From the NCBI RefSeq assembly GCF_964199755.1, contig NC_133929.1, forward strand, positions 5,845,806 through 5,909,805: 64,000 bases of DNA. The letters are read 5' to 3'. Origin of the DNA: Larus michahellis. Its lineage: Eukaryota; Chordata; Aves; Charadriiformes; Laridae. A program made the position numbers and the translations under genes. Within the stretch, counting starts at the first letter, position 1. The number at the start of each line of letters is the position of its first letter. The notes under the pieces were generated by a model that had not been told where the DNA came from, did no database searches, and saw nothing but the letters and a program-made list of their open reading frames with translations. Shown piece by piece: positions 15,642-62,642 of this stretch.

Positions 15642-16149
15642 CATCAGGTAAGGCCACTAAATCCCTGGGAAATTGCACAGCGTCCTGGACAAGGGGGAGG
15701 AAGAATCTCCTACAGGCCAGCTGTATCTTTGGAAGACTCCCCTCTTTTCCTCACCAAACCTTAGGGTTTAAATATCCTGTTTCAATGGGTGGGCAGGACT
15801 GTGCCTGAATGGATTGCGCTATCTGGAACGGTTATTTCTGGTGGTTTGATGGCCCCTTAGGTAGCAATGTTTATTTTGTGATGTCTGGTCTCACACTCAC
15901 TGAATAGTGGTGGGATGTGACTCAGGGCATTTTGTTTGTTAAAGGACTATGCAAGGCACAATTCGGGTGTCGGTTCTTATTGTGATGCAGTGTTGAGACC
16001 ACCCCGGGCTGAGCCATTTCCACAGCTCCTCCCAAGTTATCTCTGCATAGATAAGGGTCGATAAGCATCTGTCAAGGCGAGATGAATGACAACTCCCTGC
16101 ATTTCACCTTTTGTGCTCCAAACCCGGTTTGGCCAGGTGATCCCATTCA
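15642..16149 (-). mobile_element. Truncated LTR of the TGAATGGGATC family
   Basis: Reverse-orientation copy of the LTR at 6676-7517, from its U3 start (GGGATC near 16141; TGAATGGGA in reverse at 16149) to just past the TATA region. The U5 side is missing at the junction with the integrase at 15641. Confidence 0.8.
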
Positions 16150-27879: not shown

Positions 27880-29655
27880 GTGTTGATTTATTTGCTCTCA
27901 AAGTTGTGCTTGCTCTCAGGGTTCTGTTTTGTAATACCTTACCTGCTGCATGTGCTCCCTGTTGTGCTGTTTATCATCCCTGGGAACTGGGACAAGATTA
28001 CCATTTTGCTGTACTTTGTAGTGTGGGCTTATGAAATGATGAAATCGTGCGTGCTGTGGCTGTACTCGTTAGGGATAAGGGGCGATGAACAGGACGAAAA
28101 GGCAGCGGTGGTTTCATCTCTGTACTTCGGGAGCCATCTAGTAGAAACTATTAGTAATTACACTTTTTACCCTTTCTCCTCAGAGAGCCAATCTGTGGGG
28201 GAGACATCTTCCTTCACCTCCCCCTTCTCTTCCAGGCTAATTACAACGGCATTCAAGAATTTTGAATTCCCCTGAGATGCTCTAGCCAGCATGCTTCTAT
28301 TGCTAGGTGCTAGATTGCTTCTGAATATGTTTCAGTTCTTGCTTAGGGTTAAACATCGGCGTGTACATGGGCACACTACTCCAACCCCCACGACGAGCAC
28401 TGTGGCTACTCCAACCCCTATGAAAAGCACTGTGGCTGCTCCATCCCTCGTGACGAGAACTGCAGCTACTCAAATCCATGTGACAGGCACTGCGGCTAGT
28501 GAACCAGAGGAACAAACTCATACCGATATCAGTTGCCCCGATGCAGAAGAAGAAATACGCGAAGAAAATAGATCACAGGGGTGAAGAAGAACCAGGGTCA
28601 TCACGAGAACAGGAGGAAGAACCAGATGTAATCACCTGATCCTTATCCCTGGGTGAGCTGAGAGATATATGAAAAGATTTCAGTCATTGCCCAGGCGAGC
28701 ACATTGTCACCTGTCTGCTCTGATGCTGGGATAACGGGGCCAGTAGCTTGGAGTTAGAGGGTAGGGAAGCCAAGCAGCTGGGATCCCTGTCTAGGGAAGG
28801 GGGCATCAACAAGGCGATTGGAAAAAGGACACAAGCCCTCAGCATCTGGAGGCGACTTCTGTTAGCCATGAAGGAAAGGTATCCCTTCAAGGACGATATT
28901 ATATGTCACCCAGGGAAGTGGACAATCATGGAGAGAGGTATCCAGTACCTGAGGGAATTAGTTTGAGAGAGCTGATTTATTATGATCTGGACAACCCACA
29001 GTCCCATGTACTCGACCCATGTTGCAAAAGTTTGTACAGAGCGCACCATCGTCGTATGCCAGCTCATTGGCAACAATGGGCTGGAAAGACGAAGAGTCAC
29101 CAACGGTGGATGTAATGGCTGGCCACCAATACGAAGAAAATCTACTTCCCTACAGGCCTGTGTCTCGGCTCTGAAAGACTGTCCAAGAAATCCGAAAACC
29201 TGTTCAAAAAACTGTCAAAGCTGTTGGAGTCCAGCAACTCAAAAGAGGATAGGTCCTACTCCCCACCTGTATGGACCAGTATCTCAGCTATTAGGAGTAA
29301 GTGGTTTTCTGCTCAAGAGAGAGGATATAGAGGGTACACACCATGAGGCACCCTGTGGCTTTACCTGCGTGACCATGGAGAGGACATGAGGACGTGGGTT
29401 GGAAAACCTACCTCGACCCTACAGGCACAGGTATGTGAGTTGCAAGGAAAAAGAACCGCAAATAGGGGCACTTCCTAGAAAACTGCTGCCTCAGTTTCCA
29501 GTGGGCAGCTCCCCAGACAACGTAGAAGGGTTTCTGATCCTCTTAAAGGAACTTCCAATTTGTATTTACAAGGAGTGAGTAACAAGGATGGAACTCAAAC
29601 CCACGCATGCCACACAAACCCATTCATCGACAGCAGATACTACAATCAGAAATAG
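27880..29655 (+). pseudogene. gag: Gag of ERV copy 2 with N-terminal hydrophobic domain
   Basis: Aligns collinearly with copy 1 gag (54118-56082). The ATG of copy 1 is GTG here (27880). The first ~130 codons encode several strongly hydrophobic segments (LLSGFCFVIPYLLHVLPVVLFII, ITILLYFVVWAYEMM, a third after an acidic insert), then a fourth (LLLLGARLLLNMFQFLL). A TGA at 28273 stands where copy 1 has TGG. Next come about four 30-bp coding repeats (28377-28500, Thr/Pro/Ala-rich), then the conserved capsid-like part in several frames. It ends at TAG (29653-29655), the gag/pol stop shared with copies 1 and 3. Multiple stops and frameshifts make it a pseudogene. Confidence 0.82.
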
Positions 29656-32702: not shown

Positions 32703-33779
32703 ATGGCTGCAAAACAGTCAAAAGCTTCTGCGAGGAAGAACGTGGGAACTCAGACTGAGCTCCTTTGCAAGCATGTGGCTGTGCAGGTCTCGGGCTGTAA
32801 TGAATGCCTGAGCCTGGCACTGCTCCCACAGGGATCCAGAGACACTGCCTGTATACGGTGTGATCAAGTAAATGATCTGCTCAGGAAGGTGGTTGAACTG
32901 AAGGAAGAGGTAGAAAGGTTAAGAAGTATTAGGAACTGTGAAAACGAAATAGATTGGTGGAGCCATACCCTGAGGCAAAGGCAGCAGGAAGAGGCTCTAT
33001 CAGAAGTGGATGATCCCCTTCCCTCCTGTCACCAGGCAGAAGGAGAGGACTCAAGGGATAAGGGGGAGTGGAGTCAGATCCCTCCTCGGAGAGGCAAGCG
33101 AAACCCCTCACGGTCCCCCTCACCATCCCAATTGCCCTTGCATAATAGGTATGGGGCTCTGGAAATTGAGGACCAGGCGATTGAGGATGGAGAAGCTGAT
33201 CCATCCAGTGAAATGCCCAGTGCTGGTCACTCACCCCCACGCCTCAGGACGTCCTCAACAAAGAAAGAAAGAAGGGTTATTGTGGTAGGTGACTCCCTTC
33301 TGAGAGGAACAGAGGGTCCTATCTGTAGACCGGACCCATCCCACAGGGAAGTCAGCTGCCTCCCTGGGGCCAGAATTAAGGACATACGGAGGAAACTCCC
33401 TTCCCTGGTCCAGTCATCAGATTACTATCCGCTACTGATATTTCAGGTAGGCAGTGACGAAGTAGGTACCAGAAGTCTGAGGGCAATGAAGAATGACTTT
33501 AGGGCCCTGGGACGGCTGGTTAAGGGATCGGGAGCACAAATAGTGTTCTCCTCTATCCCACCATTTGCAGGGGTAGACGAGGGGATAAATAGGAGGAGCC
33601 AGCAAATTAACTCCTGGCTCCGCGACTGGTGCGTCCAGCAGGACTTTGGCTTTTTTGAACATGGGCTGATCTACAGGAAACCAGGCATGCTGGCATCAGG
33701 CGGGGGAAGCCTAACCCGAAGGGGAAGAAAGAGACTGGGACAAGAATTAGCAGGGCTTATCCATAAGGCTTTAAACTAG
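32703..33779 (+). CDS. CR1 ORF1 protein (nucleic-acid binding, esterase-like)
   Basis: The ATG at 32703 ([13 protein letters not shown]) is chosen because related CR1 ORF1s start with this wording; the frame is open from 32628. The 358-codon product has an N-terminal Cys-containing region ([18 protein letters not shown]), a predicted coiled coil ([17 protein letters not shown]), a basic, Ser/Pro-rich linker, and a C-terminal SGNH-type esterase domain with [12 protein letters not shown] (nucleophile Ser) and LPGARIKDI. The usual GTND block is GSDE and the usual DxxHL block reads GGGSL, so the hydrolase is probably inactive. ORF1 proteins bind element RNA. The frame has no stop or frameshift and ends 5 bases before the ORF2 ATG. 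Confidence 0.9.
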
Positions 33780-33784
33780 GTTTG

Positions 33785-36658
33785 ATGGGGGATGGGGACG
33801 AAACCAGGATCACAAAAGTGGTGCCTGGGAGCAACATAGCAGTGCTCATGGGTAAAAGTGATAGCAAGGTCTTGCAGCCTGCCTCAGCGATGGTGGGGGA
33901 TAGTGAATTGTGTGGCAGCATAGACACAAGGAGTAGTGATAATTTGGTAACTACAGTAGTGTCCGAGAATGATCAGGTGCAAATCAGGGCCTGTCCCCCC
34001 AAGAAAGTGGTAGGACAATTAACCCAACTGAAGTGCATCTACACTAATGCACGCAGCATGGGGAATAAGCAGGAGGAGCTGGAGGCCATCATGCAGCAGG
34101 GAAACTACGATGTGGTTGCCATCACGGAAACGTGGTGGGAAGACACACACAAGTGGAGTGCTGTAATCAATGGCTACCAACTTTTCAGAAGGGATAGGCA
34201 AGGAAGGAGAGGTGGTGGGGTGGCCCTCTATGTTAGGGGCAGTTTTGAATGTCTGGAACTTAACGGTGTGAATGACAGTGTTGAGTGTGTATGGATAAGA
34301 ATTAAGGGGAAGGCCAACAAGGCAGACATCATGATGGGAGTTTGTTATAGACCCCCTAATCAGGATGTAGAAACCGATGAAGTATTCTATAAGCGGCTGG
34401 CAGAGGTCTCGCGATCATCTGCCCTTGTTCTTGTGGGGGATTTCAACTTCCCGGATGTCCGCTGGGAATACTACACAGCAGAGAGGGAACAGTCCCAGAG
34501 GTTCCTGGAGCGTGTGGAAGACAACTTCCTAACACAGCTGGTGAAGGAACCTACTAGGGGAAGTGCCCTACTGGACCTACTGTTTGTTAACAGAGAAGGT
34601 CTTGTGGGGGATGTAAAGGTTGGAGGTCGTCTTGGGCACAGTGACCATGAAATGATAGAGTTTTCAATTCTTGGTGAAGGGAGGCGGGGAGCCAGCAAAA
34701 CTGCCACCTTGGATTTCCGAAGGGCAGACTTTAGCCTGTTTAGGAGCATGGTTGAGAGTGTCCCTTGGGAGGCAGTGTTGAAGAGCAAAGGTGCCCAGGA
34801 AAGCTGGTCATACTTCAAGCAGGTGCTCTTAGAAGCACAGGAGAAGGCCATCCCCATGTCTCGAAAAACGAGCCGACGGGGAAGAAGGCCAGCCTGGCTA
34901 AATAGAGAGCTTTGGCTGGACCTCAGGAAAAAAAGGAAGGCTTACATTCTCTGGAAAAGGGGCTTAGCAACTTATGAGGATTATCAAGATATAACAAAGC
35001 TATGCAGGGGGAAGATTAGAAGGGCCGAAGCTCAATCAGAACTCAGCTTGGCCACTGCAGTTAAAGACAACAAGAAGAGATTTTTCCAGTATATCAACAG
35101 AAAAAGGAAAACTAGGGAAAATATAGGTCCACTGATGAATGAGACGGGTGCCCTAGTGGTGGAAGACACAGAGAAGGCAGAGTTACTGAATGCCTTCTTT
35201 TCTTCGGTCTTCACTGATAAAGCCGTCCCTCACGCATCCCATACCCTGGAGGCAAGGGGGAAGGTCGGGAGAGAGGAAGATTTTCCCTTAGTTGAGGAGG
35301 ACTGGGTCAGAGACCACTTGGCCAAGCTGGACATTCATAAATCCATGGGCCCTGACGGGATGCACCCGCAAGTGCTGAGAGAGCTGGCAGATGTTATCGC
35401 TAGACCAATCTCCATTGTCTTTGCAAGGTCATGGGGAACAGGAGAGGTGCCTGAGGACTGGAGGAAGGCTGACATCACTCCAATCTTCAAAAAAGGCAAG
35501 AAGGAGGAGCCAGGGAACTACAGGCCGGTTAGTCTCACCTCTGTCCCTGGGAAGGTAATGGAGCGACTCATTCTGGATGTCATCTCCAAACACGTAGAGG
35601 AACAGGAAGTTATTGGAAGTGGTCAGCATGGATTTACCAAGGGCAAATCATGCCTGACCAATCTGATAGCTTTCTATGATGTTATAACGGGTTGGCTGGA
35701 TGAGGGGAGAGCTGTAGATGTCATCTACCTTGACCTTAGCAAGGCTTTTGACACTGTCTCCCATAACATCCTCATCAGGAAGCTGAGGAAGTATGGGCTA
35801 GACGAGGTGACAGTGAGGTGGATTGAGAGCTGGCTGAGTGACAGAACTCAGAGGGTTGTGATCAGCGGCACAGAGTCCAGTTGGAGGCCTGTAACGAGTG
35901 GTGTCCCTCAGGGGTCAATACTTGGACCAATTTTGTTCAATATATTCATTAATGACCTAGATGAGGGGACAGAGTGTATCCTCAGCAAGTTTGCTGATGA
36001 TACCAAGCTGGGAGGGGTGGCCGACACTCCAGAGGGCCGTGCTGCCATCCAGCGTGACCTGGACAGGCTGGAGATCTGGGCAGAGAAGAACCTAATGAGG
36101 TTCAACAAGGACAAGTGTAAGGTCCTGCACCTGGGAAGGAAGAATGCCAAGCACCAGTATAGGTTAGGGGTGGACATGCTGGGAAGCAGCTCTGAGGAGA
36201 AGGACCTGGGGGTCCTGGTAGACAGCAAATTATCCATGAGCCAGCAGTGTGCCCTTGTCGCCAAGAAGGCCAATGGCATCCTGGGCTGCATAGGGAAGAC
36301 TGTGGCCAGTAGGTCGAGGGAGGTCATTCTCCCCCTCTACTCTGCACTGGTGAGGCCACAACTGGAGTACTGTGTCCAGTTTTGGGCTCCCCAGTTCAAG
36401 AGGGACAGGGAACTACTGGAGCGAGTCCAGCGAAGGGCAACCAAGATGATTATGGGACTGGAGCACCTCCCTTATGAGGAAAGGCTGAAAGAGCTGGGAC
36501 TCTTTAGCCTGGAGAAGAGAAGGTTGAGGGGGGACCTGATTAATGTTTACAAGTACCTAAAGGGTGGGTTTAAGGAGGACGGAGCCAGGCTCTTTTCAGT
36601 GGTTCCTGGTGACAGGACAAGGGGCAATGGGCACAAGCTAGAACATAGGAAGTTCTGA
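33785..36658 (+). CDS. CR1 ORF2 endonuclease-reverse transcriptase, C-terminally shortened
   Basis: A 957-codon frame from ATG 33785. Residues ~75-300 form the apurinic-type endonuclease that nicks target DNA: YTNARS, TETWW (Glu), [23 protein letters not shown] (Asp), HSDHEMIEF (catalytic Asp-His). Residues ~500-800 form the reverse transcriptase: [54 protein letters not shown] and FADDTKLGG with the catalytic aspartates. The CR1 C-terminal region follows ([15 protein letters not shown]). TGA at 36656 stands in KF-TGA-SN where the related copy at 43599 has Arg, so a CGA-to-TGA change is likely. The frame is otherwise open to TAG 36791, so 44 codons are lost. The core enzyme is intact. Confidence 0.92.
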
Positions 36659-49990: not shown

Positions 49991-50380
49991 GGTGTCCCAT
50001 TCAAATTGGGGCACACCAAATATGGTTTTACACATGGTTCTTACAACTTTCAAGTGTTCAGATACATGATTTAACCAGTCACTACTTAACGCACACATAC
50101 TACTGTTTTGAAAAGCAACTATAATTCTATGGCATCATCAACCATCTGCTTCTTTCTTGATCTAGATGTCCCTGGAGTTGGTTTTGCTAGAGTTGCTTAT
50201 CTATGATGCCAGATAATGAGAGGGCTTCACAAAGGTGTTAGAGGGGCTAGGATGCTGGTGTTATCTCAGTAGTCCAGGGGTACCCTTTATTCTTCAGGGT
50301 GGGGGCTGTCCTTCTTGCAATGAGCTGGGGTCCTTTAGTCATGCTTACTTAACCAAGACTATGCAGTATACAATGTAAAC
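49991..50380. other. Nothing recognised
   Basis: No gene or repeat family seen; the flank of the next ERV. Confidence 0.4.
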
Positions 50381-50763
50381 TGTGAAAAATAGTGAAGGTA
50401 TTGTTGGCTTTCGCCATAATAACAAGGCTATAAATCTTTGACTTATAAGGATAACTAACCTTTAGTAAATTAGGAAACATGAGAAACCTCAAAGATAACA
50501 ACTAACAGCAGCTATGAAGAAAAACATCCGAGAGAAACAAAAGAGAACTTCTCCAAAAGACTCCACAAGTGATTAACAGAAGGAAACAGATGCATAGGAG
50601 AAGGGAGTTGATGATAATTGATCCTACCAGAAGGAAACACATGCATGGGAAAAGGGAGCTGATCCTACCAGAAGGAAACAGATGCATGGGAAAAGGGAAC
50701 CGAAGATCATCGATCCTCAGGAACAATTGTCAGAAGGAAACGCACAAATAGAAGAGAAAAAGG
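50381..50763 (+). mobile_element. 5' LTR (U3 only) of the env-bearing ERV
   Basis: Starts TGTGAAAAATAGTGAAGG and matches the 3' LTR (53450-53632 plus 60076 on) over ~383 bases with three substitutions and a 2-base indel. It stops before the TATA box and joins the end of pol, so everything from the promoter through gag and most of pol is deleted. It carries three tandem AGAAGGAAACA-type units (50577-50700). Confidence 0.9.
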
Positions 50764-50769
50764 ACTATT

Positions 50770-50874
50770 CACGCCAGCAGAATAAAAGGACCAGTAGAAG
50801 AACCTAGAGATTGGACTCTGACTTCAACTCCCGGGGACACCAGACTCACCTTAAAACGCCAACCAATGCGGTGA
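50770..50874 (+). pseudogene. pol: Integrase C-terminal tail of the env-bearing ERV
   Basis: An open frame reading ...ASRIKGPVEEPRDWTLTS and ending at TGA 50872-50874. SRIKGP is the position of SRVKKAP in the integrase tail at 14732-15631, so this is the last ~34 codons of a gammaretrovirus-like pol. It joins directly to LTR U3 by the deletion at about 50763. Confidence 0.65.
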
Positions 50875-50877
50875 TGT

Positions 50878-51576
50878 ATGGGAGAGGAACTGAATCATAA
50901 CTTAGAAATCACAGAAACTTGGGAAGTGAAACCAGAACTTTATCGTTGGTTTCGGGTACAGCCGGGGCAAACCTTAAAGAAAATTAGATATCCTCCTTGG
51001 GGAAGAGCACTCCCGTTACAGACAGGAGGGTCAGGGTTGTATAAAACTGAAAACTCTCTGTTTGCACTTGCATGCGATTTATATGAAGAAGATAGTCGGC
51101 TATATCCTAACCTTGAGGAAGAACTACAGCCCCCTCCGGTACCCCGTAGTATACCTTGTCTGATACATCCCTATGCTAGACATCATAGTTGGGTGAAGTG
51201 CGAATGCTTAGGTTGTAAGCAAAATTGGTATTACCATTCATCCCGAAGACATCCCTTCTGTTTAAATTGCCGGAAGCAAAATTCGAGTTTGGCTCAAACT
51301 CAGATATGATATACCAATATCGTAACGTTAATTTGTGGGTGGGAATTGCTAGTGCCGGTTCTGTGGGAAATTCCTGAAGAATGGTGGGAAACAGTGGTTT
51401 CTAAGTGTAAAAACCGATTTTGCTTGGAAAAAGAGATAAGAACCCTACCTGCTACAAGAGCCAGGGATACCGTATCAAAAGAGGATGGAGGGCAAGACCA
51501 GGTTGGCCACTGTACTCGCTGCCAAGAAGAATTATTTCTCGGCTGTTGGAAGCACCCCAATAGGCATGAGAGGTAG
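50878..51576 (+). CDS. Unrecognised Cys-rich ORF between pol and env
   Basis: The ATG at 50878 lies 3 bases after the pol stop. 143 codons are open to TGA 51307-51309; the same frame is then open for another 88 codons to TAG 51574-51576, so the ancestral ORF may have had about 232 codons. The first part is acidic and aromatic (ETWEVKPELYRWFRV), then Pro-rich (EELQPPPVPRS), then CECLGC followed 14 residues later by CLNC with three His between, a possible zinc ribbon. The second part has CTRCQEELFLGCWKH, another metal-site-like cluster. The end overlaps the env start in a different frame. I do not recognise the family. Alternatives are an accessory regulator, an env leader, or chance openness. 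Confidence 0.45.
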
Positions 51577-52303
51577 GAGTATAAGCCATACTGGACCTCC
51601 ACTCCTCGTATGGTTATTAGCGGTATCCTTAGTATCCAGTAACGAATGCATGAAGTGTTACCAGCAGGTCTCCTGGAATAGGAAGATGGTTTCCACTATG
51701 ACAGTGCATTCGCATATCAACAGCCTCTGTTATAACCGCCATGAGTTAACAGTGTGCAAATACGACCAACACGAATATTGGGTTGGGAAGAATTTAGGAA
51801 TAGGCGGAACAAGACTAGGAGTACATTGTCCTAGAGGGGAACAATGGCTCTGCTTTACTAAAGCCGGGCATTGGGACATATCAGACGGAGGTGGGGTACA
51901 AGATATGATAAAAGCCGAAATAGTGAAAAATAAAATTGAGCAAATTAAGAAAAAAATAACTCCAAGATTTGATGGAGAATTGTATGCAAAAATCAGAAAG
52001 CAGTTGGAGGAAGAAATAGGACTCCCAACATTAGGAAAGAATTTGTTTGTAGATTTGGGGGAAAGAATAAGCAGGGAATTAAATGTAACAAATTGCTGGA
52101 TTTGCGGAGGGCCTTTAATGACGGAAGAGTGGCCTTGGAAAGGGAGCAGTTTAGGGCCAGTGGAACTCCTTAAATGGAATCGTACCAGTAGCACACGAGA
52201 AGACCGACCTGAGGGATGGATTTTGAGTTCTATCACAATAGGGGAGGAATGCCTACGGAGAGAGGGTAAAAATTATTTAGAGTGTGGGACATTCTCCTTG
52301 TAA
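51485..52303 (+). pseudogene. env: ERV env, surface subunit, frameshifted
   Basis: The frame opens at 51485, but the likely start is ATG 51566, which is followed by a hydrophobic signal peptide (PPLLVWLLAVSLVSS). The product is a small SU with many paired cysteines and CWIC (about codon 207), the CXXC motif through which gammaretroviral SU isomerises its bond to TM. N-glycosylation sites such as NVTN are visible. It ends at TAA 52301. The SU continues in another frame at about 52290-52425, then an A-run (52427-52438) with stops, and TM resumes in the original frame, so at least two indels separate the halves. It overlaps the Cys-rich ORF. Confidence 0.82.
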
Positions 52304-52498
52304 AAGACTTAAAATCAGCAATGGGACTTCCACCTGGTGGTACCCAGAAAAGCCAAAATGGGTATGGGCTCTAACTAATAATACAGGAAATTGTGAGTAT
52401 GACAGTATGACCAGACTTTTTAAATAAAAAAAAAAACGGTCCTAAACCCTTATCAAAACATTCCAGAAATATCCAAGTTTTGGGAAAATATAGCGGAG

Positions 52499-53425
52499 AT
52501 GCAGACAGAGTTTTGGAAAGCCCCTGAAGGGTTATTCTGGATATGCGGAAAAAGAGCTTATTCAGAACTACCTTCTAAGTGGAAGGGTAGCTGTACCCTT
52601 GGTATTATCCAGCCGGGATTTTTCTTATTGCCTGGACCAAAAGGAGATGACTTAGGAGTACCGGTATATGAGTCCTTAAAAAGAACTAAAAGAGGTATTA
52701 TAGGAGGATCTCAGAGGTGGGGTGAAGAGGATTGGCCTCCTGAACAGATAATCCAAGTATACGGACCAGCCACTTGGGCTCAAGATGGCAGCTGGGGTTA
52801 CCGGACTCCCATTTATATGTTAAACCGCATTGTCCGACTACAGGCGGTTGTAGAAATAATATCTAATAGAACAACTCAAGCAATAAATCTAATAACGAAA
52901 CAGCAAAAACAAATGAGGGCTGCTATCTACCAAAACCGATTAGCCTTAGACTACTTACTGGCGGAAGAAGGGGGCGTTTGTGGAAAATGGAACACTTCAG
53001 ATTGTTGTTTAAAGATAGATGATAATGGGGATGCAATATTGGAAATAACAGAAGAAATCCGGAAAATTGCGCATGTACCGGTTCAAAAATGGGAATCTAT
53101 GTTAAATGATAATTGGTGGAATAATGTTTTTGGGGGAACCTGGTGGAAGAAACTAGGCTACATTCTCTTTTGTTCAATCGCTGGTTTATTATTTCTTCCT
53201 TGCTTAATCCCTTGTTTTATACGCTTAATTACAACAGTAGTCCAAAGCATGCAAGTAGTTTCCATATCCAAGAATCCAAAATTGGCAGCCTCAGGCTCAA
53301 CTAAAAAGATAATGGTATTAAGGAAAATAAGAAATACTCCACAACAATTGGAAGAAGCAGAATCGATCTATGAACAAAACAAATGGATTAAGCAAAATGA
53401 AAGTTATGGCTCAAGCCAAATGTAG
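52499..53425 (+). pseudogene. env: ERV env, SU end plus transmembrane subunit
   Basis: A 308-codon open stretch, open upstream to about 52440. Residues 61-65 (KRTKR) form a furin-type site, followed by a GIIGG fusion-peptide-like start. Next come a heptad-repeat region (LNRIVRLQAVVEIISN), YQNRLALDYLLAEEGG (immunosuppressive-domain position), CGKWNTSDCC with seven residues between Cys161 and the CC pair, a Trp-rich membrane-proximal region, a membrane span (YILFCSIAGLLFLPCLI) and an unusually long, basic cytoplasmic tail of about 65 residues. The TM half is intact; the SU frame breaks make the gene as a whole a pseudogene. A polypurine tract and the 3' LTR follow within 25 bases. Confidence 0.87.
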
Positions 53426-53436
53426 TATAAAAGACA

Positions 53437-53448
53437 AAAAGGGGGAAT
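53437..53448 (+). promoter_or_regulatory. Polypurine tract
   Basis: AAAAAGGGGGAA immediately before the 3' LTR start (TGTGAAAAAT at 53450); the plus-strand primer site of the env-bearing ERV. Confidence 0.85.
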
Positions 53449-53632
53449 TGTGAAAAATAGTGAAGGTATTGTTGGCTTTCGCCATAATAACAAGGCTATA
53501 AATCTTTGACTTATAAGGATAACTAACCTTTAGTAAATTAGGAAACATGAGAAACCTCAAAGATAACAACTAACAGCAGCTATGAAGAAAAACATCCGAG
53601 AGAAACAAAAGAGAACTTCTCCAAAAGACTCC

Positions 53633-53985
53633 TGTCCTGGTTCCGGTGGGGATAGGGTTAACTTTTCCTGGTATTCCATGCCATGTGAGCCACGCCCACC
53701 CTGAGCTGCCGGGGGAGGGGGCAGGAAGTTGCTGCTTAAAAGCGGGCTGGGGTGTCCCAGGTCCGGCCGGTCGGCGAGCGGCGGGGAGCGGCGGTTCCGT
53801 AATCGCGTTTGTATATTCCCCTGTCCGTGTTGTTGTTGTTGTTTGCCTGTTCCCTTTGCTGTTCTGTTAAACTGCCTTTGTCCCAACCCAAGAGTCTTGC
53901 CTTTTCTTACGATCCTTCCTGTATTAGGAAGGCACGTGCGAGCGGCACGTGGTTCTTTGTTGCCGTCTGAGGCTAAACCACGACA
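53633..53985 (+). repeat. 5' LTR of copy 1 (353 bp)
   Basis: TGTCCTGGTTCCGG ... TAAACCACGACA. TTAAAA (53736-53741) is the TATA-like box. Compared with the 3' LTR it has a 10-bp tandem duplication (GGGGAGCGGC, about 53782) and one GTT unit fewer. Confidence 0.93.
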
Positions 53986-53993
53986 GTCCTTTT

Positions 53994-54011
53994 TGGCGCC
54001 CAACGTGGGGC
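53994..54011 (+). promoter_or_regulatory. Primer-binding site, tRNA-Lys(CUU) type
   Basis: TGGCGCCCAACGTGGGGC, 8 bases after the 5' LTR, is the complement of the tRNA-Lys(CUU) 3' end as I know it. Copies 2 and 3 carry decayed versions at the same place. Confidence 0.85.
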
Positions 54012-54117
54012 TTGAAGGGTTGAGATAACGACAGAATCCAACTAGAACATGGAAAAAACGGTTTTGGTTTTTTTTTTGTATGCATTTATTTTATTAGGTA
54101 AGTAGTCACTGGTCATC

Positions 54118-56082
54118 ATGTTGCTTGGTTTGTTCTCATGGCTGTGTTACATAAATTCCTATATGGCTTATGTACTCCCTGCGATGCTGTTTACCATGTC
54201 TGGAAGAGGGATGAGGATTATCATTCTGCTGTCCTGTGCGATATCTGTTTATGATATGATAACATCACTGTTCAGACGGTTATTTTGGGGTGTTTATGTG
54301 GTTTTGTTGTCCTGTCCGTACATTGGACACCGTCTCTCAGAATTTGTTAATAGTTTCCCCAGCCCTTTTGCCTCCCTTTTCTCCTTCGGGTCAGGTATGA
54401 CAGCTTTTGAGAATCTTGAATATCCTTGGGATACTCAAACTAGTGTGTTCCTAGTGCTATGTCTCCTGAATACGTTCCAGGTCTTGTTTAGGGTTAAGCG
54501 ACTATTTAAGACTACCACCCGGAGATCTGCTCCGAGGCTGGATAGTCAGGGGTGGCATGGCATGTGGGAGAGCATGGGCAGGTACCTAGAGAACTACTCG
54601 CCTCCAATGGTCTGGGACTTCACCCCTGAACAATTACAGGACCCTGATAAAGTGGTAGAATATTTGAAGGGAAAATGTTGTGGCTATTCTAGAGAGGCAC
54701 AACTCACCGCGCTGTGCTGGGCCCTGGCCAGTATCTACCAGGCACTGCTCAGAATTATGCAGCACCCTCAAGGGGAAGAGATGGAAACCAGACCGGCGGC
54801 CCCTGCGGCTGCTGCAGCCCCTGCGGCAGCCCCTGCGGCGGCCCCTGCGGCTGCTGCAGCCCCTGCGGCGGCCCCTGCGGCTGCTGCAGCCCCTGCGGCA
54901 GACACTGCGGGTACTGCAACCCCTGCGACAGACACTGCAGCTACTGCAACCCCCGTGGTAGCCACTGCCACTGAACCAGAGAACCAACCCGTGCCGGTAT
55001 CAGTTGCCCCCATACAGAAGAAGAAGTACACAAAGAAATCAGTTCGCTTAGTAAGAGATGATGATGAACCAGGGCCATCACGAGAGCAGGAGGAAGAGGC
55101 AGAACCAGAGATAATTACTCGATCCCTATCCTTGAGTGAGCTGCGGGATATGCGAAAAGATTTCAGCTGACTTTCAGGCGAGCACATTGTCACCTGGCTG
55201 CTCCGGTGCTGGGATAATGGGGCCAGTAGCCTGGAATTAGAGGGTAGGGAGGCCAGGCAGCTGGGATCCCTGTCTAGGGAAGGGGGCAGTGACAAGGCGA
55301 TTGGGAAAAAGACCCAAGCCCTCAGCCTCTGGAAACGACTCCTGTTAGGCGTGAGGGAGAGGTACCCCTTCAGTGAGGATGTTGTATGTCAGCCAAGCAA
55401 GTGGACTACCATGGAAAGAGGTATCCAGTACCTGAGAGAATTAGCCGTGCGGGAGATGATTTATTATGACTTGGACAATGCAGACTTACCCACAGACCCT
55501 GATGAGGTGCGATGCACAAGGCCCATGTGGCGGAAGTTTGTACGGAGCGCACCATCGTCATATGCCAACTCCCTGGCAGTAATGGAATGGAAAGGTGAAG
55601 AGGGACCAACGGTGGATGAGGTAGCTGGCCGGCTCCGGCGATATGAAGAAAGTCTCTCTTCCCCCCTTGTCTCAGCTGTGGAGAAACTGTCGCGGAAGGT
55701 CCAGCAACTTGAAGAGAATATGTTCTACTCCCCACCTGCACGGGCCAGCATCTCAGCTATTAGAAGCAGGCATTTCCCCACTCAAGAGAGAGAGTACAGA
55801 GGGTACACACCACGAGGCACCCTGTGGTTCTACCTGCGGGACCACGGAGAGGACATGAGGAAGTGGGATGGACAACCTACTTGGATCCTGCGGACACGGG
55901 TACAGGAGTTGCAAGGAAGGACAACCACAAAAGGGGATCCCTCCAGGAAAAGTGCCGCCCCAGTTTCCAGTGGGCCATTCCCCAGACAAAGCAGAAGGCC
56001 TGATCTTGCTTCTGATCCTCTTGAAGGAACTTCCAAGTCATTTATGCAAGAAGTGAGTAATGGATACTATGACGAGTATTAG
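54118..56082 (+). pseudogene. gag: Gag with N-terminal multi-pass hydrophobic domain, one in-frame TGA
   Basis: The ATG at 54118 is the first good start after the primer site. The frame runs to TAG 56080-56082 (654 codons), interrupted only by TGA at codon 351 (55168-55170); copy 2 has CAT there. Residues 1-27, 32-49, 54-70 and 109-127 are hydrophobic enough to span membrane, with short basic or polar links. Residues ~227-290 are a Pro/Ala then Thr-rich repeat. After it come a basic/acidic stretch (KKKYTKKSVRLVRDDDE) and a capsid-like helical part (SLWKRLLLGV, MERGIQYLRELAVREMIYYD, RKFVRSAPSSYANSLAV, VSAVEKLSRKVQQLEENM, RGTLWFYLRDHGEDMRKWDG). There is no CCHC knuckle; the tail is Arg/Ser/Pro-rich. 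Membrane anchoring by these segments, in place of an N-terminal lipid, is an inference. Confidence 0.85.
54795..54965 (+). repeat. Coding minisatellite in gag (Pro/Ala-rich)
   Basis: Units of CCTGCGGC/GCTGCAGC wording encode PAA-type then TA(G/A)TATPA(T)D-type repeats, about 10 codons per higher-order unit. Copies 2 and 3 have different repeats at the same site. Confidence 0.88.
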
Positions 56083-56110
56083 GGGGGCCCTGCCTCCGGC
56101 CAGGTGGAGG
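56080..56110 (+). promoter_or_regulatory. Gag-pol UAG with candidate readthrough pseudoknot
   Basis: TAG 56080-56082, in frame with pol. After a 6-base spacer, CCTG (56089-56092) can pair with CAGG (56101-56104), and the loop CCTCC (56093-56097) can pair with GGAGG (56106-56110): an H-type pseudoknot layout. Copies 2 (29653) and 3 (62640) keep TAG, the spacer length, CCTG, the 8-base loop and CAGG. Gammaretroviruses make Gag-Pol by UAG readthrough with a downstream pseudoknot. Confidence 0.68.
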
Positions 56111-59100
56111 AAAGGGACAACCGGGTTTATTGGATGGTGTGGATTCGATGGCCTGGCACATCAGACCCACAGGAGTATAAGGCTCTAGTGGACACGGGTG
56201 CGCAGTGTACTTTAATACCATCAAGCTATAGAGGGGCAGAACCCATTTGTATTTCTGGGGTGACAGGGGGATCCGAAGAGTTGACTGTACTGGAGGCAGA
56301 AGTGAGCCTAACTGGGAATGAGTGGCAAAAGCATCCCATTGTGACTGGCCCAGAGGCTCCATGCATCCTTGGCATAGATTACCTCAGGAGAGGGTATTTT
56401 AAGGACCCAAAAGGGTACTGCTGGGCCTTTGGCATAGCTGCTTTGGAGACAGAGGAAGTTAAACAGTTGTCTGCCTTGCCTGGTCTCTCGGAGGATTCTT
56501 CTGTTGTGGGGTTGTTGAGGGTCAAAGAACAACAGGTGCCGATTGCTACTACAACGGTGCATCGGCGGCAGTATCGCACTAACCGAGACTCTCTGATTCC
56601 CATCCATGAGCTGATTCGTCAACTAGAGGTTCAAGGAGTGATCAGCAAGACTCGCTCACCCTTTAACAGTCCCATATGGCCAGTGCGAAAATCTAATGGA
56701 GAGTGGAGGCTAACTGTAGACTATCGTGGTCTGAATGAAGTCACGCCACCGCTGAGTGCTGCCGTGCCGGACATGCTAGAACTCCAGTACGAACTGGAGT
56801 CCAAGGCAGCCAAGTGGTATGCCACGATTGATATAGCGAATGCATTCTTCTCAATCCCTTTGGCAGCAGAGTGCAGGCCACAGTTTGCTTTCACTTGGAG
56901 GGGCGTCCAATACACCTGGAATCGACTGCCCCAGGGGTGGAAACACAGCCCCACCATTTGCCATGGACTGATCCAGACTGCACTGGAACAGGGTGAAGCT
57001 CCAGAACATCTGCAGTACATTGATGACATCATTGTATGGGGAAACACAGCAGAAGAAGTTTTTGAGAAAGGGAGTAAAATAGTCCAAATCCTTCTGAACG
57101 CTGGTTTTGCTATAAAGCGAAGTAAGGTCAAGGGACCTGCGCAGGAGATCCAGTTTTTAGGAATAAAATGGCAAGATGGACGCCGTCAGATTCCAATGGA
57201 TGTGATCAACAAAATAGCAGCTATGTCTCCACCAACTAGTAAAAAGGAAACACAGGCTTTCTTAGGTATTGTGGGTTTTTGGAGAATGCATATCCCAGAT
57301 TACAGTCAAATTGTAAGCCCTCTGTATCAATTAACCCGGAAGAAGAATGATTTTAAATGGGGTCCTGAGCAACGACAAGCTTTTGAACAAATCAAACAGG
57401 AAATAGTCCATGCAGTGGCCCTGGGGCCAGTCCGGGCAGGACAAGATGTTAAAAATGTGCTCTATACCGCAGCCGGGGAGAACGGCCCTACCTGGAGCCT
57501 CTGGCAGAAAGCACCAGGGGAGACTCGAGGTCGACCCCTAGGGTTTTGGAGTCGTGCATACAGAGGATCCGAAGCCCGCTACACTCCAACAGAAAAAGAG
57601 ATATTGGCAGCATATGAAGGGGTTCGAGCTGCTTCGGAAGTAGTTGGTACAGAAGCACAGCTCCTCTTAGCACCTCGACTGCCAGTGCTGGGTTGGATGT
57701 TCAAAGAAAGGGTCCCCACCACACATCATGCAACCGATGCTACATGGACTAAGTGGATTGCACTGATCACGCAGCGAACTCGAATGGGAAACCCCAGTCG
57801 CCCAGGAATTCTGGAAGTGATCATGGACTGGCCAGAAGGCAAGGATTTCGGAATGTCACCAGAGGAGGAGGTGACGCGTGCAGAAGAGGCCCCACCATAT
57901 AATAAACTGCCAGAAAATGAGAAGAAATATGCCCTGTTCACTGATGGGTCCTGCCGTATTGTGGGAAAGTATCGAAAGTGGAAGGCTGCTGTGTGGAGTC
58001 CTACACGACGGGTTGCAGAAGCCAGTGAGGGACAGGGTGAATCGAGCCAGTTTGCAGAGGTGACAGCCATCCAGCTGGCTTTGGACATTGCTGAGCGAGA
58101 AAAATGGCCAGTACTTTATCTCTACACTGACTCATGGATGGTGGCAAATGCTCTCTGGGGGTGGTTACAGCAGTGGAAGCAGGGCAACTGGCAGCGCAGA
58201 GGCAAACCCATCTGGGCTGCTGAACTGTGGAAAGATATTGCTGCCTGGATAGAGAATCTGGTTGTGAAAGTACGCCATGTAGATGCCCATGTACCGAAGA
58301 ATCGGGCCACGGAGGAACATCAGAACAACCAGCAGGTGGATCGGGCCGCTAGGATTGAAGTGGCTCAAGTGGATCTGGACTGGCAACGTAAGGGTGAACT
58401 ATTCATAGCTCGGTGGGCCCATGACTCCTCAGGCCATCAAGGGAGAGATGCGACATATAGATGGGCTCGTGACCGAGGGGTGGACTTGACCATGGACACT
58501 ATTGCACAGGTCATCCATGAATGTGAGACATGCGCTGCGATCAAACAAGCCAAGCGTGTGAAGCCTCTTTGGTATGGAGGGCGATGGCTGAAATACAAAT
58601 ATGGGGAGGCCTGGCAGATTGATTATATCACACTGCCACAAACCCGTCAAGGCAAGCGCTATGTGCTCACAATGGTGGAAGCAACCACTGGATGGCTGGA
58701 AACATACCCTGTGCCCCATGCCACTGCCCGGAACACTATCCTGGGCCTTGAAAAGCAAGTCCCGTGGCGACATGGTACCCCAGAGAGAATTGAGTCGGAC
58801 AACGGGACTCATTTCCGAAACAGCCTCATAGACACCTGGGCCAAAGAGCATGGTATCGAGTGGGTGTATCACATCCCCTATCACGCCCCAGCCTCTGGGA
58901 AGATAGAACGATACAATGGACTGTTAAAAACTACACTGAGAGCAATGGGTGGTGGGACTTTCAAACACTGGGATACTCATTTAGCAAAAGCTACCTGGCT
59001 AGTTAACCCCAGGGGATCTAACAATCGGGCTGGCCCTGCCCAATCAAAACTTCCACGTACTGTGGAAGGGGATAAAGTCCCCGTAGTGCACATGAAGAAT

Positions 59101-59268
59101 ATGCTAGGGAAGACAGTCTGGGTTAGTCCTGCCTCAGGCAAAGGCAAACCCATCCGTGGGATTGCTTTTGCCCAAGGACCTGGGTGCACTTGGTGGGTGA
59201 TGCGGCAGGATGGGGAAGTCCGATGTGTACCTCATGGGGATCTGATTTTGGGCGAGAATAGCCAATGA
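56083..59268 (+). CDS. pol: Pro-Pol polyprotein (protease, RT, RNase H, integrase)
   Basis: One open frame, in the gag frame after UAG, presumably made as Gag-Pol. Counting from the codon at 56104: retropepsin DTGA at 30-33; reverse transcriptase with Asp243 (TIDIANAF), LPQGWKHSP and YIDD at 305-308; RNase H with Asp614 (FTDGSC), Glu652, Asp676 (YTDSW) and Asp746; integrase zinc site His773, His778, Cys807, Cys810; and catalytic Asp840, Asp899 and Glu935, the last two exactly 35 residues apart (DD35E). The C-terminal domain ends VPHGDLILGENSQ. All catalytic residues are present over about 1060 codons without a stop, which is unusual for an ERV. No dUTPase was seen. The enzyme set would suffice for reverse transcription and integration. 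Confidence 0.95.
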   Translation, partial: GGPASGQVEERDNRVYWMVWIRWPGTSDPQEYKALVDTGAQCTLIPSSYRGAEPICISGVTGGSEELTVLEAEVSLTGNEWQKHPIVTGPEAPCILGIDYLRRGYFKDPKGYCWAFGIAALETEEVKQLSALPGLSEDSSVVGLLRVKEQQVPIATTTVHRRQYRTNRDSLIPIHELIRQLEVQGVISKTRSPFNSPIWPVRKSNGEWRLTVDYRGLNEVTPPLSAAVPDMLELQYELESKAAKWYATIDIANAFFSIPLAAECRPQFAFTWRGVQYTWNRLPQGWKHSPTICHGLIQTALEQGEAPEHLQYIDDIIVWGNTAEEVFEKGSKIVQILLNAGFAIKRSKVKGPAQEIQFLGIKWQDGRRQIPMDVINKIAAMSPPTSKKETQAFLGIVGFWRMHIPDYSQIVSPLYQLTRKKNDFKWGPEQRQAFEQIKQEIVHAVALGPVRAGQDVKNVLYTAAGENGPTWSLWQKAPGETRGRPLGFWSRAYRGSEARYTPTEKEILAAYEGVRAASEVVGTEAQLLLAPRLPVLGWMFKERVPTTHHATDATWTKWIALITQRTRMGNPSRPGILEVIMDWPEGKDFGMSPEEEVTRAEEAPPYNKLPENEKKYALFTDGSCRIVGKYRKWKAAVWSPTRRVAEASEGQGESSQFAEVTAIQLALDIAEREKWPVLYLYTDSWMVANALWGWLQQWKQGNWQRRGKPIWAAELWKDIAAWIENLVVKVRHVDAHVPKNRATEEHQNNQQVDRAARIEVAQVDLDWQRKGELFIARWAHDSSGHQGRDATYRWARDRGVDLTMDTIAQVIHECETCAAIKQAKRVKPLWYGGRWLKYKYGEAWQIDYITLPQTRQGKRYVLTMVEATTGWLETYPVPHATARNTILGLEKQVPWRHGTPERIESDNGTHFRNSLIDTWAKEHGIEWVYHIPYHAPASGKIERYNGLLKTTLRAMGGGTFKHWDTHLAKATWLVNPRGSNNRAGPAQSKLPRTVEGDKVPVVHMKNMLGKTVWVSPASGKGKPIRGIAFAQGPGCTWWVMRQDGEVRCVPHGDLILGENSQ

Positions 59269-59724
59269 ATCAGATTGTGTGCTGTTAATTGATAAGTAAC
59301 ACTGTCACTGTATGTCCTCATTGCTATAATTGCTATCAGTTGTACTACAAGTAAGGCACAGGGATGATGGGATAAGAACTGATCTCAGCAGCTGGCGCCC
59401 AGCAGTTTCCTCAAGATCTACATCTTCAGCCCACGGACTGCGTGCATGAGCCACACCAGGTGCACCAGTCACAAGCTCCGAAAAATACAGCATGCAACAG
59501 ACCAGCACCACCCAGCATCTCACCTGCCCTGAGAGACTGTTCTAACAAATGGAGCCCAAAGCCGTGGATTAAAAGAACTCAACGGACACTTTGGAGGGAT
59601 GACCCATAAACTAAGGGCATTATATGTGTGTGTGTGTATATATATGTATAACAGGGGAAAGTGGTGGCAATTCATTGGAACCTGCTGGGCATGGCATAGA
59701 TGGTATGGAATAAGGGGTGGATAA
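59269..59724 (+). other. Noncoding 3' region of copy 1 with primer tract
   Basis: No env or other ORF. It contains a TG/TA microsatellite (about 59625-59650) and a short purine-rich AAGGGGTGGATAA (59712-59724) directly before the 3' LTR, the likely plus-strand primer. Confidence 0.7.
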
Positions 59725-60070
59725 TGTCCTGGTTCCGGTGGGGATAGGGTTAACTTTTCCTGGTATTCCATGCCATGTGAGCCACGCCCACCCTGAGCTG
59801 CCGGGGGAGGGGGCAGGAAGTTGCTGCTTAAAAGCGGGCTGGGGCGTCCCGGGTCCAGCCGGTCGGCGAGCGGCGGTTCCGTAATCGCGTTTGTATATTC
59901 CCCTGTCCGTGTTGTTGTTGTTGTTGTTTGCATGTTCCCTTTGCTGTTCTGTTAAACTGCCTTTGTCCCAACCCAAGAGTCTTGCCTTTTCTTACGATCC
60001 TTCCTGTATTAGGAAGGCACGTGCGAGCGGCACGTGGTTCTTTGTTGCCATCTGAGGCTAAACCACGACA
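59725..60070 (+). repeat. 3' LTR of copy 1 (346 bp)
   Basis: Same ends as the 5' LTR. Five substitutions, a 10-base and a 3-base indel separate the two. Confidence 0.93.
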
Positions 60071-60475
60071 ACTCCACAAGTGATTAACAGAAGGAAACAG
60101 ATGCATAGGAGAAGGGAGTTGATGATAATTGATCCTACCAGAAGGAAACACATGCATGGGAAAAGGGAGCTGATCCTACCAGAAGGAAACAGATGCATGG
60201 GAAAAGGGAACTGAAGATCATCGATCCTCAGAAACAATTCAGAAGGAAACACACAAATAGAAGAGAAAAAGGACTAATAATAATCAATCATCATAAACAA
60301 TTACTCTGTCTAAAATAGTGAATACGTATGCAATATTGAATGTATATAAGACGTGGGTGAAGTGTTAGCTGGTGTGCCTCTGACTTGAGTCATGCACCCA
60401 GCGCTGTGCTTTTGCTTTATTGACTTTGTCCCTATAATAAAATAAGTGCCATTTCTGTTTAAGGGATCTGGCTAT

Positions 60476-61055: not shown

Positions 61056-61157
61056 ACAACCAGGGCTCGACCAGGGCTCTCATAGATTGCTTGAATAGTT
61101 TGAATTTACGGCTTGCTCAGTTAAGATTTTTTTTCTACAAGAGTCTTAAGGGGTTGG

Positions 61158-61955
61158 TGTGGCAGAGAGAAAAAGATTTCGCTGAGAGGTTCAAATTAAC
61201 AATTTATTTGGACTTCACTCACAGGTCCGATACGCCACTATTGCAAGTTTTATGGATACAATGGAGAATGCGCTATTGCAATTTAAAAAGCTATTCACAG
61301 AATACACTATTACAACCTACAAGTGATCCCGAAAAGTACCAACACAAACCGCAAGCGTGCTAGATATTAATAACTTAAAAGAGTGCACTAATCACGATCT
61401 TAAAGCATGCCAAATACCATACGTATGTTTCTCAATCACTTACCCTCTCTCTCAGGTAAAGCCGCTAAATCCCTGGGAAGTTGCCTTGTACAGCGTCCTG
61501 GACAAGGGGGGAAGAATCTCCTACAGGCCAGCTGTATCGTTGGAAGACCCCCCCTTTTTTCCCCAAACTTTACGGGTTTTATTTCCTGATTCGATGGGTA
61601 GGCAGGATTATGCCTGAATGGATTACACTATCTGGAATGTTTATCTCTGGTGGTGTGATGGACCCTTAGGTAGTATTGCTAATTTTGTGATGTCTAGTAC
61701 ACAGTCACTGAATAGTGGTGGGATGTGACTCGGGGCATTTTGTTTGTTAAGGGACTATTCAAGGCTCCATTCGGTTTCGGTTCTTATTGTGATGCAGTGT
61801 TGAGACAACCCCGGGCTGAGCCCTTTACACAGCTCCCCCCAAGTCATCTCTGCATAGATAGGGATCTGTCAAGGGAGATGGAGCTGAGTCGAATGACAGC
61901 TCCCTGCATTTCATCTTTTGTGCTCTGAAACCGGTTTGGCCGGTGATTCCATTCA
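61158..61955 (-). mobile_element. Solo LTR of the TGAATGG family in the copy 3 leader
   Basis: Reverse orientation of the LTR at 6676-7517: starts TGTGGCAGAGAG and ends GGTGATTCCATTCA. Flanks GTTGG (61153-61157) and GTTGT (61956-61960) fit a 5-bp duplication with one change. It splits the leader and gag start of copy 3. Confidence 0.85.
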
Positions 61956-62642
61956 GTTGTAAATTAGGTTTATTTGTTCTTTGTGTTTGTATGCAGTGGA
62001 TTAAATGTGCTATTTTGCTGTGGTTTGGTATGCAGATCTATAATATTATAAATTGGATAACGATTTTACCTGTGTGTCTCGGGCATCGCATAATTGATTC
62101 TATTACTAATTACACTTTCGATTTTACCTGGGGAAAGTTTACTTTGCCCTTTAATTCTTATGCCAAATTGACACCACTAGAGCTAGGGGATGGAAACCTT
62201 TTGGATTTTGGAAATTAATGTTACTTCCTTAAAATCATGATTTTATTGTTGATTCTCCTGAATGTGATGCAGGGGTGGTTTCTTATTAAATCTTGGTGCA
62301 TATGACATACGCTGCTGCTACTCAAACCCACTCTGCAGCCTGTACTGGCACAAGCCACCCCACCACCTGTACTGGCACAAGCTACTCTGCAGCCCTTACC
62401 AGCAGAAGCTGCTGCACAGCCTGTACTGGCACAAGTCACTCCACCATCTGCACAGGCACAAACCACTCCACCGCCTGTACCGGCTCAAGCCACTCCTACA
62501 AGCACGAGTACATGAGTTACAAGGTAAAACAGATAGAAGACAGAATTCTTCCAGGAGGATGGCTACTCCAGTCTACAGCGAGCAATTCTCCAGTTCGGGT
62601 AGGAACTCATCTGCTAATCATAGGTACTATGCTCAATGTTAG
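61956..62642 (+). pseudogene. gag: Gag of copy 3, hydrophobic domain kept, middle deleted
   Basis: After the solo LTR the frame encodes hydrophobic segments like those of copies 1 and 2 (KLGLFVLCVCMQWIKC, AILLWFGMQIYNIINW), then LGHRIIDSITNYTF, matching GSHLVETISNYTF of copy 2 and GHRLSEFVNSF of copy 1. A TAA at 62216 falls between the third and fourth segments. The fourth (IMILLLILLNVMQGWFLI) follows in frame, then a 10-codon Pro/Ala/Gln-rich repeat (62325-62505). The capsid-like part is deleted up to the gag tail (ELQGKTDRR to RYYAQC). It ends at the shared TAG 62640-62642. Confidence 0.8.
62325..62515 (+). repeat. Coding minisatellite in gag, copy 3
   Basis: About six 30-bp units (CAGCCTGTACTGGCACAAGC-like) encode QPVLAQATPP-type decapeptides at the site of the copy 1 Pro/Ala repeat. 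Confidence 0.87.

Follow-up and report, generated by a model that had tools for sequence, protein, structure and literature searches.

A conserved hydrophobic module at the start of Gag in env-less class III endogenous retroviruses of birds, with a probable role in membrane insertion

Introduction

Gag proteins usually reach membranes by means of a lipid or a basic patch. A different route is taken by the Gag of Ty1 and, in part, that of IAP, which are brought to the ER by SRP, Ty1 Gag being reported to have no recognizable signal sequence or transmembrane domain (PMC3945221). SRP-led targeting of this kind would be shared with the protein described below, and no homology of its first residues to the Gag of IAP or Ty1 was found. 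Particles of the mouse ERV-L, MuERV-L, which like the present element is an env-less member of class III, gather in the ER (PMC5930517). The bird ERVL of the TguERVL type is env-less and has gag-pol, with a full-length member of 6.4 kb, and an alphaherpesvirus glycoprotein C-like stretch has been proposed in the Gag of TguERVL2; the words "hydrophobic" and "transmembrane" do not occur in that paper (PMC6523648). In XtERV-S of frogs, a class III Gag is described as having neither a myristoylation signal nor a Cys-His box, and it differs from ours in its polybasic Gag start and in carrying env (PMC8278194). A parallel in layout is sORF2 of the Drosophila 412 element, a short FAST-like membrane protein coded before gag, with N-out/C-in orientation and a basic patch after the span, which accompanies the transfer of capsids between cells (PMC11952523). 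It is, however, a separate small protein with one span, whereas the sequence considered here is fused to Gag and has about three hydrophobic segments.

The locus lies in a window (the whole stretch of DNA that was analysed) of 64,000 nucleotides from Larus michahellis, which contains three related elements, here called copies 1, 2 and 3. Within the openly licensed literature, we found no description of a polytopic Gag start in birds and no account of this particular Gag, which in the first-pass annotation would be a distinct way of budding or of assembling on internal membranes.

Results

Copy 1 and the opening of its gag

The element called copy 1 extends over 53633-60070 as LTR, primer site, gag, pol and LTR, leaving no room for env, and is a young endogenous retrovirus of the foamy-like group (class III). 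Its LTR pair has 5 mismatches in 343 aligned sites, with 13 gap columns. A 5-bp target duplication is a trait of class III ERVs, and the ACTCC found on both sides of copy 1 (53628-53632 and 60071-60075) fits it. In the PDB, the reverse transcriptase part scores best against Pr125Pol chains (E 1.4e-36), which we take to be foamy virus Pol, and MLV-type chains come next (4e-31), a ranking by match rather than by tree. The parts are as follows.

53633..53985, + strand: 5' LTR of copy 1 (TG...CA), from comparison of the LTR pair
53994..54011, + strand: primer site of tRNA-Lys type, 18 of 18 bases matching what we take to be the tRNA 3' end
54118..54510, + strand: hydrophobic module opening gag, open and in frame
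54118..54198, + strand: hydrophobic segment A (residues 1-27), from hydrophobicity in 40 relatives
54217..54273, + strand: hydrophobic segment B (residues 34-52), with a basic link before it, from hydrophobicity in 40 relatives
54286..54327, + strand: weaker hydrophobic stretch (residues 57-70), probably no span
54328..54429, + strand: acidic loop (residues 71-104), bearing an N-x-S/T sequon in most older relatives
54433..54489, + strand: hydrophobic segment D (residues 106-124)
54490..54543, + strand: basic stretch after D (residues 125-142), mean 5.85 K+R and 0.98 D+E
54544..54762, + strand: Trp-containing helical domain (residues 143-215), structure model with pLDDT about 80
54781..54987, + strand: Ala/Pro/Thr-rich spacer from the translation, limits approximate
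55168..55170, + strand: TGA interrupting gag, from the translation
55171..56082, + strand: remaining gag, capsid-like part, in the same frame as upstream gag, stop at 56080-56082
56083..59268, + strand: pol frame with protease, RT, RNase H and integrase, in the same frame as gag
59725..60070, + strand: 3' LTR of copy 1, from LTR comparison

Downstream of the LTR and the primer site, the frame of 54118-54510 runs on without interruption into the next roughly 220 residues, so that the module is indeed part of the gag frame, as the first-pass annotation had read it. Translation of 54118-55170 gives the hydrophobic start, the Trp-containing domain, the Ala/Pro/Thr-rich spacer and the beginning of the capsid-like part, in this order; the TGA at 55168-55170 means that copy 1 itself is broken. 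The length of the spacer varies, the open frames of sibling copies often being about 10 residues apart, perhaps through repeat expansion. The capsid-like part (55171..56082) has no Pfam match, and nothing bearing on the identity of the Gag capsid was returned by searches of Pfam, NCBIfam, PDB sequences and folds. The Cys-His box pattern is absent from both gag pieces, and a simple pattern for the major homology region was not found in the second. On the + strand between pol and the 3' LTR there is no frame of at least 80 aa, and hence none for a dUTPase after the integrase, a feature treated as variable in the OVEX1 paper (PMC2717909).

Copy 1 was inserted into the 3' LTR of a second, env-bearing ERV that spans 50378-60276, has its 5' LTR at about 50378-50767 and contains an env-like frame (52424-53425) matching TLV_coat with E 2.6e-11. 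Since copy 1 splits this 3' LTR, the order of the two insertions can be read directly.

The module in the host genome and in other birds

When the 1.41-Gb assembly containing the window was searched with the module of copy 1, 868 candidates were obtained. The best 150 all lack stops and have an identity of at least 98%, and 112 of these 150 have a frame open over at least 580 residues (counted by eye), a sample biased towards open frames since it consists of the best matches, and thus most of these copies have no stop between module and gag. With the module of copy 2, 150 of 697 candidates were scored and gave 148 matches, ranging in identity from 99% (copy 2 itself) to 36%; 113 of the 148 are stop-free over the matched stretch, as read from the table, and stops are common among the close relatives of copy 2. 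The module of copy 3 gave 159 matches from 305 candidates, 150 being scored. The sample comprised 20 young copies and 40 older relatives of copy 1, all 40 chosen from stop-free rows of the search with the copy 2 module, together with 20 loci of copy-2 type and 20 of copy-3 type.

Copies 2 and 3 belong to sister families that have diverged strongly from copy 1.

27880..28353, + strand: module of copy 2, sister family 2, with an NYT sequon and one stop (TGA at 28273-28275)
61955..62308, + strand: module of copy 3, sister family 3, with a truncated start, an NYT sequon and two stops

Both have a related hydrophobic frame, which bears out one part of the claim that the three copies share the same plan; the other part, that the module keeps its place after the primer site, does not hold for copy 3, where an inserted repeat (61155-61955) separates the two. 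This insertion displaced roughly the first 30 residues of the module, which are still present at other family-3 loci. The repeat is an unnamed interspersed one, unrelated to the module, and occurs also at 6676-7520 and 15644-16149. In a profile comparison with A1, copy 2 was recovered with E=7e-26, copy 3 only with E=0.002 and probability 14. Common to the three families and to some bird homologues is a plan of A and B, an acidic loop with the sequon, D, and a basic or spacer stretch. The Trp-containing domain is missing from family 3, from two metagenome proteins, and from copy 2 together with several of its relatives. Segment D is mostly retained in them, so that the membrane module persists even where the adjoining domain has gone.

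The P0001 protein search returned 141 matches. Among the 120 listed are models from birds, proteins from metagenomes and a few entries filed under Klebsiella, which we take for contamination. Considering 122 homologue models (the 120 listed and two more), 15 start within residues 1-60 of the module and 17 within 61-125, another 9 at 126-150, and 81 after residue 150, many of the last from cranes, whose gene models mostly begin at Met 149 or 164. Crane copies may have lost the module or may have been annotated too short. Gag models of the hawks Morphnus and Buteo do carry the module, with an NYT sequon. No relatives were found in viral contigs, bacterial genome contigs or plasmids. Where the homologues have weak Pfam hits to models of mucin-like proteins and herpesvirus glycoproteins, these lie within the Thr/Pro/Ala-rich spacer, and the glycoprotein C claim for TguERVL2 may therefore rest on such a spacer.

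Base composition and selection

The modules were compared with dinucleotide shuffles, 2000 in the case of copy 1. The lack of a stop in the 131 codons of copy 1 is reproduced by a fraction of only 0.0015 of its shuffles, whereas its mean hydrophobicity of 0.81 is close to the 0.79 of the shuffled sequences, 0.46 of which are as high. Copy 3 resembles copy 1 (0.42; two stops, 0.018), and copy 2 contains one hydrophobic segment that is rarer than chance (0.012). T-rich DNA by itself accounts for the hydrophobicity of copies 1 and 3. Since one copy taken alone does not exceed this expectation, the case has to be made from the family. In a simulation of neutral decay from copy 1, hydrophobic blocks average 0.6-0.7 at 59% identity, compared with 0.97-2.22 in copy 2, a difference that is only suggestive given the wide spread and the assumption of even base frequencies.

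By pairwise Nei-Gojobori estimation with bootstrap ranges, dN/dS of the family 1 module is 0.43 (0.30-0.58), calculated from 19 of the 40 copies (every second one after exclusion of L054 and L068), and that of the Trp-containing domain 0.37 (0.25-0.59; 17 copies). The family 3 module gives 0.72 (0.59-0.86), and its second half 0.80 (0.60-1.15), from 16 of the 20 loci, with copy 3 itself and three near-duplicates left out. Both family values lie below 1, and the purifying selection on the module that had been suspected is thereby supported. Between copies 1 and 2, the estimate is 0.45 (0.26-0.75) or 0.59 (0.37-0.93), depending on the alignment. Counting variants against copy 1 yields a corresponding ratio for the module of 0.70 among singletons, compared with 0.67 among shared variants and 0.54 among variants present in at least 4 copies. 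This contrast is weak, and the ratios of single blocks range from 0.28 to 1.62.

At non-polar sites of the hydrophobic blocks, the middle block included, 6 of 52 shared replacements are to polar residues, where 13.2 are expected (P=0.012), while singletons at the same sites are near expectation (11 of 47 vs 11.9). Leaving out the middle block gives 6 of 44 against 11.3 (P=0.043); for charged residues alone the deficit does not reach significance (3 vs 6.3 expected, P=0.11), and the Trp-containing domain displays a similar avoidance of polar residues (2 of 19 vs 6.2). At the level of the family, this avoidance lends support to the proposal that hydrophobicity is conserved; copies 1 and 3 taken singly match shuffled DNA. 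In 39 of the 40 older relatives, the lengths of internal indels relative to copy 1 are divisible by 3.

Compared with the first stretch of capsid and with pol, the module changes much faster. Its dS between copies 1 and 2 is also higher, at 0.97 against 0.31 and 0.48, respectively; the high value may come from alignment noise or from a different ancestry by recombination. The capsid stretch 91-297, with a dS of 0.95 for which frameshifts in copy 2 are perhaps responsible, was not taken as a yardstick.

Segments, charge and the sequon

As criterion for a span we used a Kyte-Doolittle mean of 1.6 over 19 residues. Segments A and B reach this value in all 40 older relatives of copy 1 and D in 36, compared with 8 of 40 for the stretch 50-76, and three spans are therefore likelier than the four that had been proposed from copy 1. 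If residues 57-70 did span, only about 8 residues would separate the sequon Asn near 78 from the membrane, a distance too short for the glycosylating enzyme to act. Structure models (pLDDT 53 and 56) are too weak to support statements about a fold.

In the same 40 relatives, basic residues prevail in the link between A and B (means of 2.0 K+R and 0.02 D+E) and strongly so in the stretch after D (5.9 K+R, 1.0 D+E), and acidic ones prevail in the loop (4.8 D+E, 1.3 K+R). One or two basic residues after B, on the supposed lumenal side, count against a simple reading of the topology. The loop carries an N-x-S/T sequon in 39 of the 40, and one is found in 15 of the 20 copy-2-type loci (restricted pattern; three of these are NQS) and, by count, at one place in 18 of the 20 copy-3-type loci. 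Together with the charge pattern, this conserved sequon is the best evidence for the predicted topology. No loop sequon is present in copy 1 or in the 20 young copies, whose alignment with it is free of gaps: all 40 older relatives hold 36 or 39 nt at 54351/54352 that are missing from copy 1, with the sequon inside. The youngest and very numerous copies have thus lost 36 nt together with the loop sequon, a loss that may or may not have played a role in their burst.

Discussion

We consider it probable that Gag in these avian env-less class III ERVs starts with a conserved membrane module of about 130 residues, which inserts into the ER and leads to assembly on internal membranes. The sequence can be read as follows. 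The nascent Gag chain would insert into the ER with its N-terminus facing the lumen; the basic link between A and B would remain cytosolic, B would cross back to the lumen, and the acidic loop would be lumenal and, in most copies, N-glycosylated. Segment D would then return the chain, leaving the basic patch and the capsid part cytosolic and tethered to the ER, such that particles would assemble on internal membranes and probably bud into them. Assembly at this site would suit an element without env, which re-inserts in the same cell. From translation through insertion and glycosylation to the sites of assembly and budding, these steps are what we infer from the sequences, which themselves show the open frame and its conservation, dN/dS below 1, the sequon and the charge pattern. 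Points against this reading are the hydrophobicity expected from T-rich DNA in copies 1 and 3, the nearly equal ratios of singleton and shared variants, the sequon missing from the youngest copies and the late start of 81 of the 122 homologue models.

The precedents of SRP-led ER targeting, MuERV-L and 412 together make internal-membrane assembly the likeliest reading, a released leader the next and a function between cells the third. The module could be cut from Gag, as a signal or leader peptide or as a small membrane protein released by protease, and work alone, with a soluble Gag in the particle; that the families differ downstream of D, the Trp-containing domain being absent from copy 2 and family 3, would agree with a module acting as a separate unit. 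We nevertheless regard this as rather unlikely, because module and gag form a continuous frame that no stop divides in the majority of the best copies, and what follows is a low-complexity spacer in place of a recognised cleavage site. Alternatively, the module might act in the manner of 412 sORF2, carrying capsids to cell contacts and aiding their passage to a neighbouring germ cell without env. Its place before the capsid part, the span followed by a basic patch and the missing env all speak for such a function (PMC11952523), but with more than one hydrophobic segment, fusion to Gag and no sequence relation to sORF2 found, it appears improbable.

The most sceptical reading holds the stretch to be an untranslated T-rich leader, open by chance, with Gag starting at Met 149 or 164. 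It would account for the match in hydrophobicity to shuffled DNA and for the start of most crane models at these two residues, but dN/dS below 1, in-frame indels, the kept sequon and the many open copies make it very unlikely. Base composition, which does explain the hydrophobicity of copies 1 and 3, was rejected as a full explanation on similar grounds, namely dN/dS, in-frame indels, the sequon and the avoidance of polar residues. At the other extreme, one could speculate that this Gag has become a polytopic glycoprotein of membranes, in effect a mini-envelope joined to the capsid, which would fix assembly to membranes of the ER or the secretory pathway and whose loop and spans would let particles exit in vesicles and pass between cells in place of env, a bold idea to which we give little credence.

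If assembly on internal membranes is correct, a Gag that combines conserved hydrophobic segments with a loop bearing a sequon would constitute another assembly route, spread over three diverged families, hundreds of candidate copies and some other birds. Such a route would be relevant to the multiplication of elements without env in the genomes of birds, and the site of particle assembly becomes testable with simple reporter proteins.

Additional observations

Immediately upstream of the gag ATG of copy 1 lies AG/GTAAGT (54096-54103), a consensus-like splice donor. It is present in 14 of the 20 young copies (of the other 6, 4 are not aligned here and 2 have AGGTAAAT), compared with 1 of the 40 older relatives, 23 of which have AGGTAAAT. 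The donor would be a recent gain of an element that carries no env.

Many of the matches to the modules of copies 2 and 3, a large share, lie on the 26.9-Mb contig that holds the window (C38), which may be the W chromosome; the W chromosome has been described as a refuge for ERVs (PMC8310711). The window also contains a LINE-type frame of 963 residues (33767-36658) with endonuclease and reverse transcriptase domains, and several partial copies of it are scattered across the same stretch.
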